From: Xanthobacter dioxanivorans
Lineage (GTDB): Bacteria; Pseudomonadota; Alphaproteobacteria; Rhizobiales; Xanthobacteraceae
NCBI RefSeq assembly: GCF_016807805.1
Contig: NZ_CP063362.1
Coordinates: 1,116,001-1,180,000, forward strand
Reading direction: 5' to 3'
DNA length: 64,000 nucleotides
Below the pieces are notes generated by a model. That model saw only the letters and a program-made list of their open reading frames with translations, did no database searches and was not told the origin of the DNA. A program made the position numbers and the translations under genes. Position 1 is the first letter of the stretch. Every line of letters starts with the position of its first letter. Positions 6,817-46,252 of this stretch are shown one piece after another.

Positions 6817-8387
6817 TACGGGTGCACGAAGGCAAGGTGCGGGAGACGAGGCTGCGCAGTGCGGCGGAAGCAAAGCGGACGGGGGCATCAGCGCCCCTCG
6901 GCTGCGTGCGCGCCCATGCCACCCGATTTATCCGCGCCCTCCCCCTGCTGCTGCCCCTGCTCTTCGCCGGCTGCGCCGGCTTCGATCTCGATCAGGCGAG
7001 CCTGCCGCTCAACGCGCAATCCTCCGCCTCGGAATTCGCCGACATGTCGCCGGCCCAGCGCCGGGAGCACGAGCGGCTGGTGGCGGGCTATGGCGGCGCC
7101 TACAACGATCCGCAGCTCAAGGCGCTCATCCAGCAGGTGGTGGAGCGGCTCGTCGCCGCCTCCGAGCGGCCCGACCTGAAGTACCGGGTCACCGTCCTCA
7201 ATTCGCCGGCCATCAACGCCTTCGCCCTGCCGGACGGCTCGCTCTACGTCACCCGCGGCCTGCTTTCGCTGGCCAACGACACCTCCGAGCTCTCCTCCGT
7301 GCTCGCCCACGAGATGGCGCACGTCATCGCCCGCCATGCCGTGATCCGCGAGGATCAGGTCAAGCAGGCGGTGCTGGTGAGTCGTGTCATCTCCGACGTG
7401 GTGAACGATCCTGACCTCGGCGCGCTCGCCATGCAGAAGAGCCGCCGCACCCTCGCCTCCTTCTCGCGCGGACAGGAACTGGAGGCGGACGCCATCGGCG
7501 TGGGCATCGCGGCGCGCGCCGGCTTCGATCCCTACGGCGCCTCGCGCTTCCTCACCGACATGGGCCGCTACGGCGACCTGAAGAGCGCGGCCTTTTCCGG
7601 CTCATCGTCGTCCACCACGCCGGACATGGATTTCCTCTCGTCCCATCCGGCGACGCCCGAGCGCATCTCCATCGCCATCGCCAATGCCCGCCAGTATGCC
7701 AGCCCGAACGGCCAGGCCGACGGCGAGCGCGATCGCGCCGCCTACTTCTCGGCCATCGAGGGCATGGTCTACGGCGACGATCCCAAGGAAGGCTTCGTGC
7801 GCGGGCGCAAATTCTTCCACCCCAAGCTCGGCTTCACCTTCACCGCGCCGGAGGGCTTCTCGCTGGAGAACACTTCCCAGGCGGTGCTGGGCGCCACCCA
7901 GACCGGGCGTGAGGCCCTTCGGCTCGACGCGGTGCGCGTTCCCGCCGAACAGTCGCTGGCGCAATATCTGTCCTCGGGCTGGATCGACGGGGTGGAGATC
8001 AACACGGTGGAGAGCCTCACCGTCAACGGCTTCACCGCGGCCACGGCCATCGCGCGCGGCGACCAGTGGTCCTTCCGCATGTTCGCCATCCGCTTCGGCG
8101 CGGACGTCTACCGCCTCATCTTCGCCGCGCGCGAGCTGACGCCGGAGCTGGACAAGCAGTTCCGCGTCGCCGCGGACACCTTCCGCCGCGTCTCCACCGG
8201 CGAGGCGGAAACGGTGAAGCCGCTGCGTCTGCGCATCGTTTCGATCGGACTGGGCGATTCGGCGGACAAGCTCGCCGCCCGCATGCAGGTGCCGGACCGC
8301 CCGCTGGAGCGCTTCCTGATCCTCAACGGGCTCGAGAACGGTGCCAAGCTCAAGTACGGCGACAAGGTGAAGATCATCGCCGAGTAA
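6813..8387 (+). CDS. M48-family zinc metalloprotease, lipoprotein
   Basis: A 524-residue protein. A hydrophobic segment ending LLFAGC (about 50-56) is a lipobox, so the mature protein should be anchored by its Cys. The zinc site HEMAH lies in LAHEMAHVIARH, and the third ligand is in the downstream GQELEADAIG motif, as in the M48 (BepA/LoiP-like) family that degrades or helps assemble outer-membrane proteins. The C-terminal 60 residues resemble a LysM-type module (LERFLILNGL...LKYGDKVKI). The GTG start overlaps the previous stop by four bases. Family is secure; the envelope quality-control role is inferred from relatives. Confidence 0.88.
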   Translation: MIRVHEGKVRETRLRSAAEAKRTGASAPLGCVRAHATRFIRALPLLLPLLFAGCAGFDLDQASLPLNAQSSASEFADMSPAQRREHERLVAGYGGAYNDPQLKALIQQVVERLVAASERPDLKYRVTVLNSPAINAFALPDGSLYVTRGLLSLANDTSELSSVLAHEMAHVIARHAVIREDQVKQAVLVSRVISDVVNDPDLGALAMQKSRRTLASFSRGQELEADAIGVGIAARAGFDPYGASRFLTDMGRYGDLKSAAFSGSSSSTTPDMDFLSSHPATPERISIAIANARQYASPNGQADGERDRAAYFSAIEGMVYGDDPKEGFVRGRKFFHPKLGFTFTAPEGFSLENTSQAVLGATQTGREALRLDAVRVPAEQSLAQYLSSGWIDGVEINTVESLTVNGFTAATAIARGDQWSFRMFAIRFGADVYRLIFAARELTPELDKQFRVAADTFRRVSTGEAETVKPLRLRIVSIGLGDSADKLAARMQVPDRPLERFLILNGLENGAKLKYGDKVKIIAE

Positions 8388-37121: not shown

Positions 37122-37774
37122 GATGCCGCCCGCCTGAAAGCCCGGCCCGCACACGCCGTGGACCGGAGCGCCTGAAGCATAGCCACCTTCGGGACTTTCG
37201 CCTGCTCCTGCTGCAGCTTGCACGCGGCAAAAATCATCAAAACGCCACTTGCATGGGCAGGGCGAATCCACTACATCCGCTCTGCCCAATTTCGCACGTG
37301 CCTGTGGTCGCGTGTCGGTCGGTAGGATCTCCGGACAAGAGGCCGGAAAGCTGCCAGGACGATCGACAAGCCGGAGGGAACCGGCCCACCCCGCTCCTCA
37401 ATGCGGGGGACGTGACTTGAAGCAACGACGTAAGGGCTTTTTTGGTCTCGGTCGCCCCTCCAAAGGGCGGCGTTACTGAAGAGGCACTACATCTTGCCGG
37501 CCGTGCGGAGCGGGACTTCCCTCTCCAATCGTGCGCAGTTGTCTCGCCCCTGCTTCGGCCCTCGCCGTCGCGGGCGGTTCGCCTGCCGTTCGGTCCGATG
37601 ATGCGGCCGGGTTTGAAGCCCGGCGAAGCGGGTACGGCCCGCAGGCGCGTCGGCGAGTCCACATCGCCGCGAACCTGCTCGCGCGTGCCCCGGCCGGCCC
37701 CTCGGGGTCGTCCGTCCCTGTCGTCGCGCGGATTGTCCGCGCTTCACGAGGCTTCAGGTCACGGAGAGGACACC
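37122..37774 (+). promoter_or_regulatory. Long leader region of the ornithine/lysine decarboxylase gene
   Basis: About 650 bases without a normal gene. The part from about 37330 is full of short inverted repeats (for example GCCGGGTTTGAAGCCCGGC at about 37607-37625) and includes a candidate leader peptide (37417-37479). Alphaproteobacterial speF-type decarboxylases are known to carry a long structured leader (the speF RNA motif); position and structure fit, but I could not fold or match it. Confidence 0.5.
37417..37479 (+). CDS. Candidate leader peptide of the decarboxylase gene
   Basis: A 20-codon frame with TTG start and a good GGGGGA site 6 bases upstream. The peptide is strongly basic with a GFFGLGRPSKG centre and ends RRY before TGA. 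About 300 bases of structured leader separate it from the decarboxylase ATG. In enterobacteria the speF gene is controlled by an ornithine-sensing arrest peptide (SpeFL); a similar mechanism is a guess from position and composition. Confidence 0.45.
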   Translation: MKQRRKGFFGLGRPSKGRRY

Positions 37775-39812: not shown

Positions 39813-40133
39813 TCAGAACAGCTTCATGCCCGGCGGCAGCGCGAGGCCGCCGGTGAGCGACTGCATCTTCTCCTGCATCACCCGCTCGGCCTTGACCCGG
39901 GCATCCGCGAGCGCGGCGACGAGGAGGTCCTCCAGGATCTCCACCTCCTCCGGCTTCGCCAGCGAGGGATCGATGCGCACCGCCTTGCACTCGCCCTTGG
40001 CGGTGACGCGCACGCTGACGAGGCCGCCGCCGGAGGCGCCCTCCACCTCGACCTGCTCCAGCTCCGCCTGCATCTGCTGCATGCGCTCCTGGAGCTCCTT
40101 GGCCTGCTTCATCATGCCCATCAGGTCGCGCAT
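39813..40133 (-). CDS. ybaB: YbaB/EbfC nucleoid-associated protein
   Basis: A 106-residue protein with [19 protein letters not shown] and the conserved GGGLVSV...[12 protein letters not shown] core. Dimers bind DNA. It follows dnaX by 33 bases, the usual dnaX-ybaB pair. The recR gene that normally comes next is not in this window: the next gene is a convergent acetyltransferase. Confidence 0.95.
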
Positions 40134-40166
40134 GAGACTTCAACCTCCGTGCTGCGTGGTGGCGAA

Positions 40167-42035
40167 TCAGTATTCCAGCTCGTCGTCCAGCCCCGGACCG
40201 GAGAGCAGGTCCTCCTCGGAGGGGGCGAGCACCTCCTCGTGGAGGGGAGCCTCGGCGCGGGTGCGCACGTCCACCACCTCGGCGCCGGGGAAGCGGGCGA
40301 GCACGGCGGCCACCAGCGGGTGGGCCTTGATGCCCTCCTCCCGCTCGGCGCGCACCGCCTCGTTCTCCTCCGCCAGGGTGGGGCCGCCCGGCTGCGCGGA
40401 GAGGGAGACCAGCCAGCGCCGGCCGGTCCATTCGGAGAGCTTGCGGGAGAGGTCCTGGATCACGCTCGCCGGCGCGCCCGGAAGGAGGGCCACCTCGATG
40501 CGGCCGTCCTCCACGTGCACCGGCCGCAGCGAGGTCTCGATGGCGTGCTTCAGGGCGAGGTCGCGCTTGGTGGAGACGAACTGCGCCACGTCGGCGAGGC
40601 TGGCGAGGCGCGGCCCCGCCTCCGCCAGGACCACGGGCGCCGGCCGCGCGGCGGGGCGCGGCTCGGCCACGGCCCGGGGCGCCAGCGACAGGCGCGCGCC
40701 CCCGCCGCCGCCCGAGGGCGCGGGGGACGGGGCCGGAGAGGGGGCGGCGGACGAAGCCGGCGCATCGGCGGCCGGCTGGTCCTTCAGCCGGCGCAGCGCC
40801 TCGTCGGGGGTGGGCAGGTCGGCGGCGTAGGCGAGGCGCACCAGCGCCATCTCCGCCGCCTGGGCGGGCTTTGGCGCCTGCTGCACCTCGCCGATGCCCT
40901 TGGTGAGCATCTGCCAGGCCCGCGCCAGCACCCGCATGGACAGGCGCTGCGCCATCTGGAGTCCGCGCACGCGCTCGGCCTCCACCAGGGCCGCATCCTC
41001 GGCGGCGTCGGGCACGATCTTGAGCCGGGTGACGAGGTGGGTGAATTCGGCGAGGTCGGTGAGGATCACCGCCGGGTCGGCACCCGCATCATACTGGTCG
41101 CGGAACTGGGCCAGGGCGCGGGCCATCTCGCCCTTCATCAGCGCCTCGAACAAATCGATGACCCGGCCCTTGTCGGCGAGGCCGAGCAGGCGCCGCACCT
41201 CTTCCGCCGAGACGGTGCCGCCGCCATGGGCGATGGCCTGGTCGAGCAGCGAGAGCGAATCGCGCACCGAGCCTTCCGCCGCCCGCGCCACGATGGAGAG
41301 GGCCTCCGGCTCGATGGTCACGCCCTCCTTGGCGCAGATGCCGGCGAGATGGGCGGCGAGCACCCCCGCCTCCACCCGGCGCAGGTCGAAGCGCTGGCAG
41401 CGGGAGAGCACGGTGACCGGAACCTTGCGGATCTCGGTGGTGGCGAAGATGAATTTCACATGCTCCGGCGGCTCCTCCAGCGTCTTGAGCAGGCCGTTGA
41501 AGGCCGCCGTGGAGAGCATGTGCACTTCGTCGATGATGTAGACCTTGTAGCGCGCCATCACCGGCCGGTAGCGGGCGCTCTCGATGATCTCGCGGATGTC
41601 GTTGATGGAGGTGTTGGACGCCGCGTCCATCTCCATCACGTCCACATGGCGCGATTCGATGATGTCGCGGCACTGCTTGCCCATCACCGCCAGGTCGAGG
41701 CTCGGGCCGCCGGGCGATGTGTTTTCCTGGGGCTCGTAGTTGAGCGCGCGGGCGAGGATGCGGGCGGTGGTGGTCTTGCCCACCCCGCGCACGCCGGTGA
41801 GGATGTAGGCCTGCGCGATGCGCCCGGAGGAGAAGGCGTTCCGCAGGGTGCGGACCATGGCCTCCTGGCCGATGAGGTCGGTGAAATTCTGCGGCCGGTA
41901 TTTTCGGGCCAGCACGCGATAGGCGGCCGGAGCCGGGGCCGCGACGACGGGCGCCGCGGCCGGCACCGGCGGCGGTCCGCCGAGGTCGAGCCCCGGCCCG
42001 TCGTCGTCGGGGTGCGCGCGCGTGTCGTCGCTCAT
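40167..42035 (-). CDS. dnaX: DNA polymerase III subunits gamma and tau
   Basis: A 622-residue clamp-loader ATPase. After an Asp/Pro/Ala-rich start come YRPQNFTDLIGQ, Walker A GVRGVGKTTTARIL, ESRHVDVMEMDAASNT and IIDEVHMLS; then the Ala/Pro-rich hinge (about 420-470) and the tau C-terminal domain. Only one of the zinc-module cysteines seen in E. coli remains (GKQCRDI). The protein drives loading of the beta clamp. Confidence 0.97.
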   Translation of the reverse strand: MSDDTRAHPDDDGPGLDLGGPPPVPAAAPVVAAPAPAAYRVLARKYRPQNFTDLIGQEAMVRTLRNAFSSGRIAQAYILTGVRGVGKTTTARILARALNYEPQENTSPGGPSLDLAVMGKQCRDIIESRHVDVMEMDAASNTSINDIREIIESARYRPVMARYKVYIIDEVHMLSTAAFNGLLKTLEEPPEHVKFIFATTEIRKVPVTVLSRCQRFDLRRVEAGVLAAHLAGICAKEGVTIEPEALSIVARAAEGSVRDSLSLLDQAIAHGGGTVSAEEVRRLLGLADKGRVIDLFEALMKGEMARALAQFRDQYDAGADPAVILTDLAEFTHLVTRLKIVPDAAEDAALVEAERVRGLQMAQRLSMRVLARAWQMLTKGIGEVQQAPKPAQAAEMALVRLAYAADLPTPDEALRRLKDQPAADAPASSAAPSPAPSPAPSGGGGGARLSLAPRAVAEPRPAARPAPVVLAEAGPRLASLADVAQFVSTKRDLALKHAIETSLRPVHVEDGRIEVALLPGAPASVIQDLSRKLSEWTGRRWLVSLSAQPGGPTLAEENEAVRAEREEGIKAHPLVAAVLARFPGAEVVDVRTRAEAPLHEEVLAPSEEDLLSGPGLDDELEY

Positions 42036-42817: not shown

Positions 42818-43050
42818 GGCGCAAGCCCTTCGCGACGTCCTCCCCGACGGCCCGGCCTTCCCAAACACGCCGCGCCCGCCGCGTGACGTGCAATGCACGG
42901 ATTTGCGCGCATGACGCCAGGGCGGGTGCGGATGGGGGGGCAGAGGGGGCGGCGGTTGGGCGGCAGGGAGAAGCCGCGCCGACTCACGCCACGCCTCACG
43001 CCGGGCCGAAGGCGGCGCGGCGGGCGGGACCGGTTCTGAACGCAAATGAG

Positions 43051-43149
43051 GTGGGAGGCTGGACGAAGACCCGAGTCGGGCTCGTTGGGGCTGCTTCCTT
43101 CCGGACCTGACCCGGTTGGCGAGTGGCTCGTCCACCGCCAACCTCCCAC
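43051..43149 (-). ncRNA. ffs: Small signal recognition particle RNA
   Basis: On the minus strand the segment GGTCAGGTCCGGAAGGAAGC followed by AGCC is the conserved SRP RNA apical loop that binds Ffh. The ends GTGGGAGG (43149 side) and CCTCCCAC pair to close the 99-base hairpin. It lies upstream of dnaX as in many alphaproteobacteria. Confidence 0.95.
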
Positions 43150-43151
43150 GC

Positions 43152-43182
43152 GCTATATGGCAGGGGCGGGGGAGGGATGCAA
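43152..43182 (-). promoter_or_regulatory. Probable promoter of the SRP RNA gene
   Basis: TTGCAT (43177-43182) and TATAGC (43152-43157), 19 bases apart on the minus strand, just before the RNA 5' end. A CATATA box would give a 17-base spacing. Confidence 0.5.
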
Positions 43183-43240
43183 GGGGGTGGCTGCGGAGTT
43201 CGATCAAGAGCAAGCGATCAAAACATCACCGAGGCGCCCC

Positions 43241-44860
43241 CTAAAATAAGAACTCTTCCTCATCCTCATCACCTTCGCCATCGTTGTCATATATACTTAT
43301 ACGAGGCTCGATAGCTCTCGTTATAGCCGAGAAATCGCCCTCATCAACGTCATCAAACACATGTATTTTTGCGTCAGTTAATATTAAACTGATTTTATCA
43401 TTCTGTATATCCTTCATCAACTCGTTTTTACAAGGAAATTTATTCTTTCTAGGCCAATCTCTCGTTTTCCATTCCATTATTACGGGCCAATATGGTCCAT
43501 ACCCGCCATCCGAACCACAAACTGGAATGACATCATCGAATATCGACTTCCTCATCATGCCCAACTCCGCAGCAACGAGAGTGGACAATATCGAAAGACT
43601 TGCGCAATTGTTAGCTATCACACTCGTTTCTATTTCTTTTAAATCAATATTTAGCCGCAGGGAAGCAAATATAAGCCAACATACTTCACTGTCATTTCCT
43701 AGTCGTCCGTGCTTTGTGATCAATTCCTTAATAAGTCCACTCCATACGTTTATATCAACGTCACCTTTAACGTATTGTCTCCAAATTATAACTCTCATAA
43801 CATAGTCTACAGCATGACCAAAATGAGCAGTCACGCGCTTCAAAAAAGGCTCAAAAACATTCCAATAAGATGTCTTAATGCCGGAATTATCGATTTGTCG
43901 GATTGTATATTTTAGAATGCCATCGTCATTGTTTTTAACGGCCAAAGAAAAGGCAAACTCAAGGGCAGACCGAAGCCGATCCTCAGATCTCCTCGGCGGC
44001 CCATCCACGGCAAGCGAAATCAGGTTAGATATTTCGAGCGGCCAATAATCCGCAAATGAAAAATCTGCATCGTAAATTTTCGTTTTTGATTCATTTATAT
44101 CTAGCTCAAAATGTCTGATAGACTCCCTATATTTCCAGAGCGCCTGCTCTGCGTCTCCATGACTATTCGCTCCAATCCACACGTCATCGACATGCCTAAC
44201 TATGCCAATATTTTTTCCCACGAATCTTTCTTCAAAGTCCGCATCAATCGCAGTTGCTACAATCTCTGCGAAGTAACGCGAAGCGTCGGGACCCACAGGA
44301 ATCCCTATTGTCTGGCCGTCTTGCCCCTGCCGAATTATTTGATCAATCTTGTTTCCCCAGATTAAATTTGAATCAAAACTCCTATCCTCCTTCGCCGCAA
44401 GACGCCCATGCAACGCCCAAGGTATAGAATGCGTATAAATTGAATGGTAGAATCTCGATATATCAGTTTTAGCAATAAATCTGTACACACTTAGTTTTTC
44501 AGATATTACTTTTTCGAGCTCGGAATGAGTCGATATATTTACGGCCCTGTCAGATTTTTCATCGTAGATGGGCCTTGATAAGCTAAAGTTTGACTTTAGA
44601 AAAAATTGATTCAACTCACTAGATCTATCGTCGATAATTTTTGCTGAATCGTGAGCCATTACAGGGTGCGCCACGGAGAATTGCCTGCGCGTCATGCCCC
44701 GTTTTGAGGAATTATGCGTAGCGGGCCGCGTAGCAATTTTCTTGTGTGTCTGATAATCAGATCGTGTCGAAAGAAAATCGCCAAGCTTAACAGAACTAAA
44801 TATCGGCGGCAGATTTTCCGGCAGATATCCCTTCGCCAAAAGGTCACGTTTGAGGGACAT
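43241..44860 (-). CDS. Solitary reverse transcriptase, candidate defence (DRT/UG-type) gene
   Basis: About 539 residues. Reverse transcriptase motifs are in order: TDISRFYHSIYTHSIPWAL (motif A, catalytic Asp), TIGIPVGPDASRYFAEI (motif B-like), and IVRHVDDVWIG (motif C, with HVDD where YADD is common), then INESKTKIY. The C-terminal half (about 280-520) is helical and unlike group II intron maturases, and there is no maturase or endonuclease domain; the protein ends in an acidic tail (GEGDEDEEEF). This fits the unknown-group/DRT-type RTs that defend against phages. The gene is clearly AT-richer than both flanks, so probably acquired. I used ATG 44860; a GTG at 44872 is possible. No partner gene or retron msr-msd is evident. 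Confidence 0.82.
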   Translation of the reverse strand: MSLKRDLLAKGYLPENLPPIFSSVKLGDFLSTRSDYQTHKKIATRPATHNSSKRGMTRRQFSVAHPVMAHDSAKIIDDRSSELNQFFLKSNFSLSRPIYDEKSDRAVNISTHSELEKVISEKLSVYRFIAKTDISRFYHSIYTHSIPWALHGRLAAKEDRSFDSNLIWGNKIDQIIRQGQDGQTIGIPVGPDASRYFAEIVATAIDADFEERFVGKNIGIVRHVDDVWIGANSHGDAEQALWKYRESIRHFELDINESKTKIYDADFSFADYWPLEISNLISLAVDGPPRRSEDRLRSALEFAFSLAVKNNDDGILKYTIRQIDNSGIKTSYWNVFEPFLKRVTAHFGHAVDYVMRVIIWRQYVKGDVDINVWSGLIKELITKHGRLGNDSEVCWLIFASLRLNIDLKEIETSVIANNCASLSILSTLVAAELGMMRKSIFDDVIPVCGSDGGYGPYWPVIMEWKTRDWPRKNKFPCKNELMKDIQNDKISLILTDAKIHVFDDVDEGDFSAITRAIEPRISIYDNDGEGDEDEEEFLF

Positions 44861-45035
44861 TATCACCACCACGATTCAGGATTCTGTCACTGACGGCTTC
44901 TGCCCTAAATATGCTCGCATCCCGCTTGCCCCGGCAACCCCCTTTCCACCCCACCCCTGAAACCGCTCACCCCCCATCCACCCCTTCCGCCCCGCCCCAA
45001 CACCCAACCCCCTGAAATCCCACACACTCCCTCTC

Positions 45036-45051
45036 TGGCACACGCCTTGCT
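45036..45051 (+). promoter_or_regulatory. Sigma-54 promoter of hupSLC
   Basis: TGGCACACGCCTTGCT has GG and GC exactly 10 bases apart (45037-45038 and 45049-45050), a full -24/-12 match. It is 83 bases before the hupS ATG. HoxA, the likely activator, is encoded at 54970. Confidence 0.85.
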
Positions 45052-45133
45052 GAAACGGTTCCAATCCCCCGGCCTCGACGCCGGCGGGGAGGACAAGGTC
45101 AGCCCAAAGGTCAACCAAGAGGGGGACGCCTTT

Positions 45134-46248
45134 ATGGCCCTCGAGACGTTCTATGAGGTCATGCGGCGGCAGGGCATCACCCGCCGTTCGTTCCTGAAAT
45201 ACTGCTCGCTCACGGCGGCGGCCCTCGGCCTCGGGCCCGAGTTCGCGCCAAAGATCGCCTATGCCATGGAGACCAAGCCGCGCACCCCGGTGCTGTGGCT
45301 GCACGGGCTGGAATGCACCTGCTGCTCGGAGAGCTTCATCCGCTCGGCGCATCCCTTGGCCAAGGATGTCGTGCTGTCCATGATCTCGCTGGATTATGAC
45401 GACACGCTCATGGCCTCCGCCGGCCACCAGGCGGAAGCGATCCTCGACGAGGTGATGACCAAGTACAAGGGCAACTACATCCTCGCGGTGGAGGGCAATC
45501 CACCCCTGAACGAGGATGGCATGTACTGCATCATCGGCGGCAAGCCATTCGTGGACCAGCTGAAGAAGGTGGCGAAGGACGCCAAGGCCATCATCTCCTG
45601 GGGCTCCTGCGCCTCCTATGGCTGCGTGCAGGCCGCGCGCCCCAACCCCACCCGCGCGACGCCCGTGCACGAGGTGATCTTCGACAAGCCCATCATCAAG
45701 GTGCCGGGCTGCCCGCCCATCGCCGAGGTGATGACCGGCGTCATCACCTACATGCTCACCTTCGACCAGCTCCCCGCCCTCGACCGGCAGGGCCGGCCGC
45801 TGATGTTCTATTCCCAGCGCATCCACGACAAATGCTATCGCCGGCCGCACTTCGATGCCGGCCAGTATGTGGAGAGCTTCGACGACGAGGGCGCGCGCAA
45901 GGGCTATTGCCTCTACAAGGTGGGCTGCAAGGGCCCCACCACCTACAACGCCTGCTCCACCGTGCGCTGGAACGATGGCGTCTCCTTCCCCATCCAGGCC
46001 GGCCACGGCTGCATCGGCTGCTCGGAAGACGGCTTCTGGGACAAGGGCTCGTGGTATGCGCGCCTCGCTGACCTGAAGGGCTCCGGCTTCGGCATCGAAG
46101 CCAACGCCGACCAGGTGGGCCTGATTGCCGCCGGCGCGGTGGGCGCGGGCGTCGCGGCCCATGCCGCCATCAGCGCGCTGAAGCGCGCCCAGCACAAGAA
46201 CACGGACGGTGCGACCAAGGGCGCGACCACCACCGAGGGAGGCGAGAA

Positions 46249-46252
<4 letters not shown>
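45134..46252 (+). CDS. hupS: Uptake [NiFe] hydrogenase small subunit
   Basis: A 372-residue group 1 small subunit carrying iron-sulfur clusters that pass electrons from the active site to the membrane. The Tat signal [10 protein letters not shown] (about 15-24) exports the folded dimer. [12 protein letters not shown], and the C-terminal CSTVRWNDG...[12 protein letters not shown] give the cluster cysteines, and a hydrophobic C-terminal helix (about 325-350) anchors it. ATG 45134 with GGGGGA upstream was chosen; the open frame from 45047 is untranslated leader. hupL starts inside its last codons (4-base overlap). Confidence 0.97.

Follow-up and report, generated by a model that had tools for sequence, protein, structure and literature searches.

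In this work, we analyzed a 64,000-nucleotide stretch of the genome of Xanthobacter dioxanivorans (contig NZ_CP063362.1, positions 1,116,001 to 1,180,000; hereafter the window) and, specifically, a solitary reverse transcriptase (RT) gene located between ffs and hupS. The gene occupies positions 43241 to 44860 on the minus strand and encodes a protein of 539 amino acids. Its open reading frame (ORF) is intact according to the ORF list and translation, from the ATG at 44860 to the TAG at 43241-43243; an in-frame GTG at 44872, 12 bases earlier, is a possible alternative start that would yield 543 amino acids. The gene reads towards ffs, which encodes the small signal recognition particle (SRP) RNA (4.5S) and lies on the same strand (43050 to 43147; Rfam RF00169, 59.9 bits), and on its other side lies hupS, encoding the uptake hydrogenase small subunit (45134 to 46252, plus strand; an ORF with matches in the genus, 45134 being the likely true ATG). 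Comparison of ffs-hup intervals delimits the inserted DNA to 1742 bases (43188 to 44929) with a G+C content of 42.7%, against 69.0% over the 600 bases beyond ffs and 64.8% in hupS. A first-pass annotation made from the sequence had described an AT-rich RT gene in a G+C-rich setting between ffs and hup, with all RT motifs including HVDD, an acidic tail and no obvious partner, and had considered it acquired; ORF reading, Rfam and profile searches, an alignment of 120 homologues and comparison with sister species corroborated each of these points. Our results indicate that the gene probably belongs to DRT6, a recently described family of defence-associated reverse transcriptases, and that it arrived as a single-gene cassette at a cargo site flanked by the ffs and hup promoters, which point away from each other.

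The site was assessable in ten of the 14 genomes of the genus. hupS was matched in 13 of the 14 (one only partially) and ffs in 12; G006 and G007 (no ffs match, hupS at the contig end), G009 (hupS incomplete, at the contig start) and G011 (no hupS match) were left out, and for G008 the interval was measured from its second, diverged copy of ffs, close to the contig start. All ten carry an AT-rich insert of 1-2.2 kb, with 37-47% G+C (for G004, the value of 44.0% corresponds to the AT-rich part only) between bordering regions of 63-73%, and these inserts are of nine kinds. Besides the DRT6 RT of the window genome, the cargos encode a DS41_1 anti-phage protein in G001 (NCBIfam, 437 bits against a cut-off of 370), a DUF4917 protein in G002 (PADLOC PDC-S21, E = 3e-93), an FRG-domain protein in G005 (PADLOC PDC-S15, E = 3e-13), an OLD/Gabija-like AAA protein in G004 (best matches to OLD, AriA and GajA models), a TIR-like protein in G003 whose score does not reach the Pfam cut-off, an Sll1717-type P-loop ATPase with a 186-residue protein in G012, and two kinds of gene pair in G010, G008 and G013. 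Six of the nine kinds bear a defence or candidate-defence label (the TIR-like one weakly), where we take the PDC names of PADLOC to denote candidate systems; the remaining ones are one ATPase of uncertain role and two kinds without a label. Apart from the pair common to G010 and G008 and from 20-27 bases at the right border, the cargos share no DNA similarity at E <= 1e-3, and the genus yielded no ffs-hup junction without an insert. Altogether, the ffs-hup interval is a single address holding differing small cassettes, many of them defence-labelled, across the species of this genus.

The pair common to G010 (L081, 1261-2702) and G008 (L085, 685-2126), with 93% DNA identity, encodes proteins of 306 and 174 amino acids; stop and start overlap, and the 174-residue protein has membrane-like segments. 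The two proteins of L081 have no PADLOC match, no Pfam match above cut-off and none in NCBIfam, and the pair is a candidate new defence system. The pair of G013 (L082, 1248-2713), with 312 and 173 amino acids, has the same layout and membrane-like segments in the 173-residue protein; BLASTP at E <= 1 reveals no resemblance between it and the L081 pair, and it too lacks PADLOC matches and Pfam matches above cut-off. Being fixed in place next to an essential RNA gene while its small cassette differs in most species, the site offers a route to new defence genes by position, with both kinds of pair as candidates. We judge the site a more important and more interesting result than the RT itself, and it also prompts a testable question, namely how genes can be exchanged at a single place with no integrase in view.

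On the left, the site is bordered by the probable ffs promoter (43154 to 43182, minus strand), proposed from its sequence and the genus comparison and consisting of TTGCAT, a 17-base spacer and CATATA; the sequence shared on the ffs side extends to GATGCAAGGGGG (43176-43187) in the window. On the right, the conserved border CCCGGCAACCCCCTTTCCACC (44930 to 44950, plus strand), whose core was present in all ten assessable intervals, precedes the hup promoter TGGCACACGCCTTGCT (45036 to 45051, plus strand), which we take to be of the sigma-54 type by its consensus. The window insert spans from the ffs promoter to approximately 0.1 kb short of the hup promoter and therefore lies between two divergent promoters. 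The ffs-side border pattern was observed in nine of the ten intervals (it was not found in G008), and in six of these nine AT-rich DNA follows it immediately; in G004 a GC-rich stretch of approximately 0.9 kb intervenes, and for G002 and G012 an additional ffs copy, bearing a variant of the border, precedes the AT-rich part.

These borders might be sites of specific, att-like recombination rather than mere edges of two selected promoters, a reading that we consider rather unlikely. The left border GCAAGGGGG and the right border GRYAACCCCCTTTCC resemble imperfect inverted repeats, and the left one recurs in another family next to a putAbiC gene. Four genus genomes have an additional, diverged copy of ffs, as expected from target duplication: inside the ffs-hup interval in G012 (L077) and G002 (L078), approximately 2.2 kb from the first copy in G009 (L086), and beside the hup cargo in G008 (L085), on a contig different from that of the full ffs. 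However, no integrase or transposase was seen among cargo ORFs of at least 90 amino acids, inspected by eye and not all profile-searched, and the cargos showed no terminal direct repeat. Besides, the left border coincides with the probable -35 box of ffs, which selection alone would preserve, and the departures described above for G008, G004, G002 and G012 make it non-uniform. As a separate observation, a GIY-YIG-type ORF lies between both ffs copies in L077 and L078 (Pfam was tested for L077 only), an arrangement that an element using ffs might have left by duplicating its target.

The far side of ffs, which in the window holds dnaX and, as recognized by eye, a YbaB-type gene (39813-42035, minus strand), has 67-71% G+C over the adjoining 600 bases and no AT-rich insert in the nine genus loci whose contigs cover that side. 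Outside the genus, 46 ffs loci were viewed by G+C profile, namely 18 (of which two stop at the edge of a contig) plus 28 (30 less the window and L016). A clear AT-rich stretch 5' of ffs was observed in L016 and also in L124 (approximately 50% G+C, reaching the locus end), and L130 and L134 showed single low-G+C windows only; AT-rich inserts are otherwise rare, so the cargo pattern is mainly a feature of this genus. In L103, from a genome of another family (G036), a putAbiC gene (1272-2096; PF16872, 64.3 bits against 22) lies 5' of ffs and follows the ffs-side border as in the window genus; putAbiC is a putative phage abortive infection protein. No published account of a defence hotspot at ffs or SRP RNA genes, or of a hyphomicrobial one, turned up among open-licence papers.

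Turning to the RT, it was found in one of the 14 genus genomes, that of the window, which speaks against its being ancestral at the ffs-hup site. G002 has a distant relative with 28% identity and a stop codon inside (L048, contig C32). Some match was obtained in 16 of 297 genomes of the order, the window's own included, with a runner-up 37% identical, and the nearest relative among the matches listed is 52% identical. The Drt6 profile was matched at E <= 1e-60 in six of 385 genomes of the class and in four of 398 of the phylum, counting the window's own in both cases; one of these four, G710, has an RT (L096) better matched by Drt4 and flanked by what look like restriction-system genes. A search of genome contigs for related loci gave one relative only. 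Among seven further RT loci (L095 and L097-L102), the G+C content of the RT gene is clearly below that of its surroundings in six, the exception being L095, and no recurring neighbour was seen on reading their ORF lists, in which neighbours were not compared with each other. L095 has an integrase-like ORF, recognized by eye, upstream of the RT gene, and in L102 a GIY-YIG-like ORF (7335-7817, also by eye) lies approximately 400 bases away from the G317 relative, a DRT6 with 37% identity, and is reminiscent of the ORFs of this type near ffs in L077 and L078.

Presence in a single genus genome and a nearest listed relative only 52% identical would also suit an intact passenger gene for which selection for defence has been lost in this host. 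We regard this as improbable, as the 539-residue frame is unbroken, the invariant residues of the catalytic centre and the tail are preserved, and other species hold other intact ORFs at the same site.

The protein matches the Pfam domain RVT_1 above cut-off (37.2 against 29.6 bits), and this is its sole Pfam domain. The catalytic residues D133 (motif A, codon at 44462 to 44464), D225 and D226, together with V224, are invariant in the 120 homologues; the last three belong to the HVDD of motif C (residues 223-226, 44183 to 44194), in which position 223 is H in 116 homologues and Y in four. The best full-length match among DRT/UG profiles is Drt6 (PADLOC PDLC03748, E = 4.3e-145, residues 8-526), presumably the UG12 of the older naming, and the second is Drt4 (E = 6.4e-107). 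Drt6 was also the best profile for eight of the nine RTs scanned, a set that did not include L048. The best match by sequence and by fold is the DRT6 structure 9wy8 of the PDB, with 27% sequence identity, ahead of DRT4/UG15 (9vdo, 9vdv and 9l9s, approximately 20%) and AbiK/Abi-P2 (7r06 and 7r08, 18%). The predicted monomer model has the two-domain fold of DRT6, DRT4 and AbiK, including the C-terminal helical domain. DRT3b resembles the protein in its helical-repeat domain and in having a tyrosine, Y666, joined to DNA, according to the available part of PMC13174585; in contrast, it acts with DRT3a and a non-coding RNA (ncRNA), and its profile aligns well with the window RT in the RT core only.

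In a tree of 29 rows, the window RT groups firmly with DRT6 relatives (support of 95/90 for a set of five and 100/99 for a set of 14), although the fork between DRT6 and DRT4 was left unsettled. A DRT4 (UG15) enzyme is nonetheless very improbable on the profile scores, in which Drt6 is 126 bits ahead of the best-scoring Drt4 model and the NCBIfam Drt4 model reaches 187.3 bits against a cut-off of 450, and on the precedence of 9wy8 in both sequence and fold. A group II intron RT was rejected (maturase RT, 34.2 bits against 300; no intron RNA detected by Rfam in 42900-45200), as was a retron RT (St85 type, 24.8 bits against 235; no other retron model listed at E <= 1). The reading given in the first-pass annotation is partly supported: neither intron nor retron features were detected, and its suggestion of a stand-alone phage-defence RT is consistent with the DRT6 family and the one-gene insert, but its description of the C-terminal half as unrecognised did not survive structure comparison. 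By its sequence, the protein is well placed as a new, divergent member of the known defence family DRT6.

Comparison with sister species leaves the insert holding the RT gene only, with margins of 53 bases beyond the 3' end of the gene and 57-69 bases ahead of its 5' end; the rest of the flanks corresponds to the ffs promoter and the hup upstream region. An RT templated by an ncRNA beside the gene, in the style of DRT2, DRT3 or DRT9, was considered because 43148-43240 and 44873-45030 are non-coding and those three systems depend on an ncRNA (PMC13213688, available part), but it has very little likelihood: the margins of less than 70 bases make an adjoining RNA of this type unlikely, Rfam detected only ffs in the flanks up to E = 1, without a search aimed at new conserved RNAs, and the same available text describes DRT4 and DRT6, the closest relatives, as single-gene systems. 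Comparison and Rfam were applied to the flanks proposed in the first-pass annotation for an ncRNA (43150-43240 and 44873-45030), with no RNA other than ffs; an ncRNA encoded elsewhere is a separate possibility. As read from the sequence and the predicted model, the family, an intact catalytic centre and a two-domain fold are established, and the insert is too short to accommodate a partner gene or any ncRNA of appreciable size.

The C-terminal tail (residues 516-539, 43244 to 43315, minus strand) consists of AIEPRISIY, an acidic run and a terminal F. A516, I517 and E518 are fixed in all 120 homologues, and Y524 (codon at 43289 to 43291) is a tyrosine in 119 of them, the remaining one (P0101) stopping just short of this position. 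The run after Y524, with a median of 17 residues, contains at least 40% D or E in 115 of the 120, and Phe occupies the last alignment column in 87 of the 97 sequences having a letter there. In the predicted model, the last 16 residues (524-539) are disordered, with a predicted local distance difference test score (pLDDT) below 50. Among 12 distant proteins from other genomes (one of them, L098, apparently identical to P0100 of the alignment), a late tyrosine is retained at shifting positions: the last one lies at most 15 residues from the end in 11, and is the penultimate residue in six of these. The motif of the window branch, AIExRxSxY(D/E)n, is not seen in the printed tail of 9wy8. Since the tyrosine keeps its place where a disordered and loosely conserved stretch begins, it is most simply read as a chemical handle, and we predict from the sequence that Y524 is the primer of DNA synthesis. 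Two related systems offer precedents: Y666 of DRT3b, which we infer to be C-terminal, and DRT4, whose primer is reported to be a conserved tyrosine (PMC13314766).

By analogy with studied relatives, the RT would form a homohexamer and make single-stranded DNA without a nucleic-acid template, with synthesis starting from a side chain of the enzyme itself, predicted here to be Y524 in the disordered acidic tail. The product would be harmless until stabilised by a phage factor, e.g. an ORF55-like phage DNA-binding protein, and its build-up would then abort infection. The hexamer, the untemplated single-stranded DNA and the activation by phage ORF55 are told for DRT4/DRT6 in the available part of PMC13213688.

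Several points weigh against this assignment and this priming scheme. First, the proteins labelled DRT6 group weakly in the tree (61/66), with long branches flagged. In addition, the protein of L096, the sole compared one with Drt4 as best profile, lacks a late C-terminal tyrosine, unlike the window RT, and Y142 and Y244 are as conserved as Y524 (120 of 120 each), although they lie in the folded core. AbiK primes on an N-terminal tyrosine, Tyr44 (entry 7z0z is the Y44F variant), whereas the candidate of the window RT is C-terminal. Furthermore, DRT1 primes on a serine (PMC13275509, available part), and the available text of PMC13213688 calls the product chemistry of DRT6 less resolved than that of DRT4. 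The true priming residue of DRT6, perhaps already known, may differ from Y524, and DNA synthesis and phage protection by the window RT are themselves deduced from relatives.

With these points considered, it is tempting to speculate, though we hold it at somewhat less than an even chance, that DRT6 enzymes prime on a tyrosine of the disordered acidic tail and that ffs-hup is a dedicated, integrase-free site of defence-gene exchange, where AT-rich cassettes of one or two genes are swapped by recombination between the conserved promoter regions. If so, the anti-phage system found at this address would differ in most species, and the two-gene cassettes would be new defence systems. The window RT would add a divergent DRT6 enzyme, sharing 27% identity with the one of solved structure, and would supply a precise candidate for the primer residue.

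Elsewhere in the window, Rfam placed an ar45 small RNA directly ahead of the speF leader (37284-37567).
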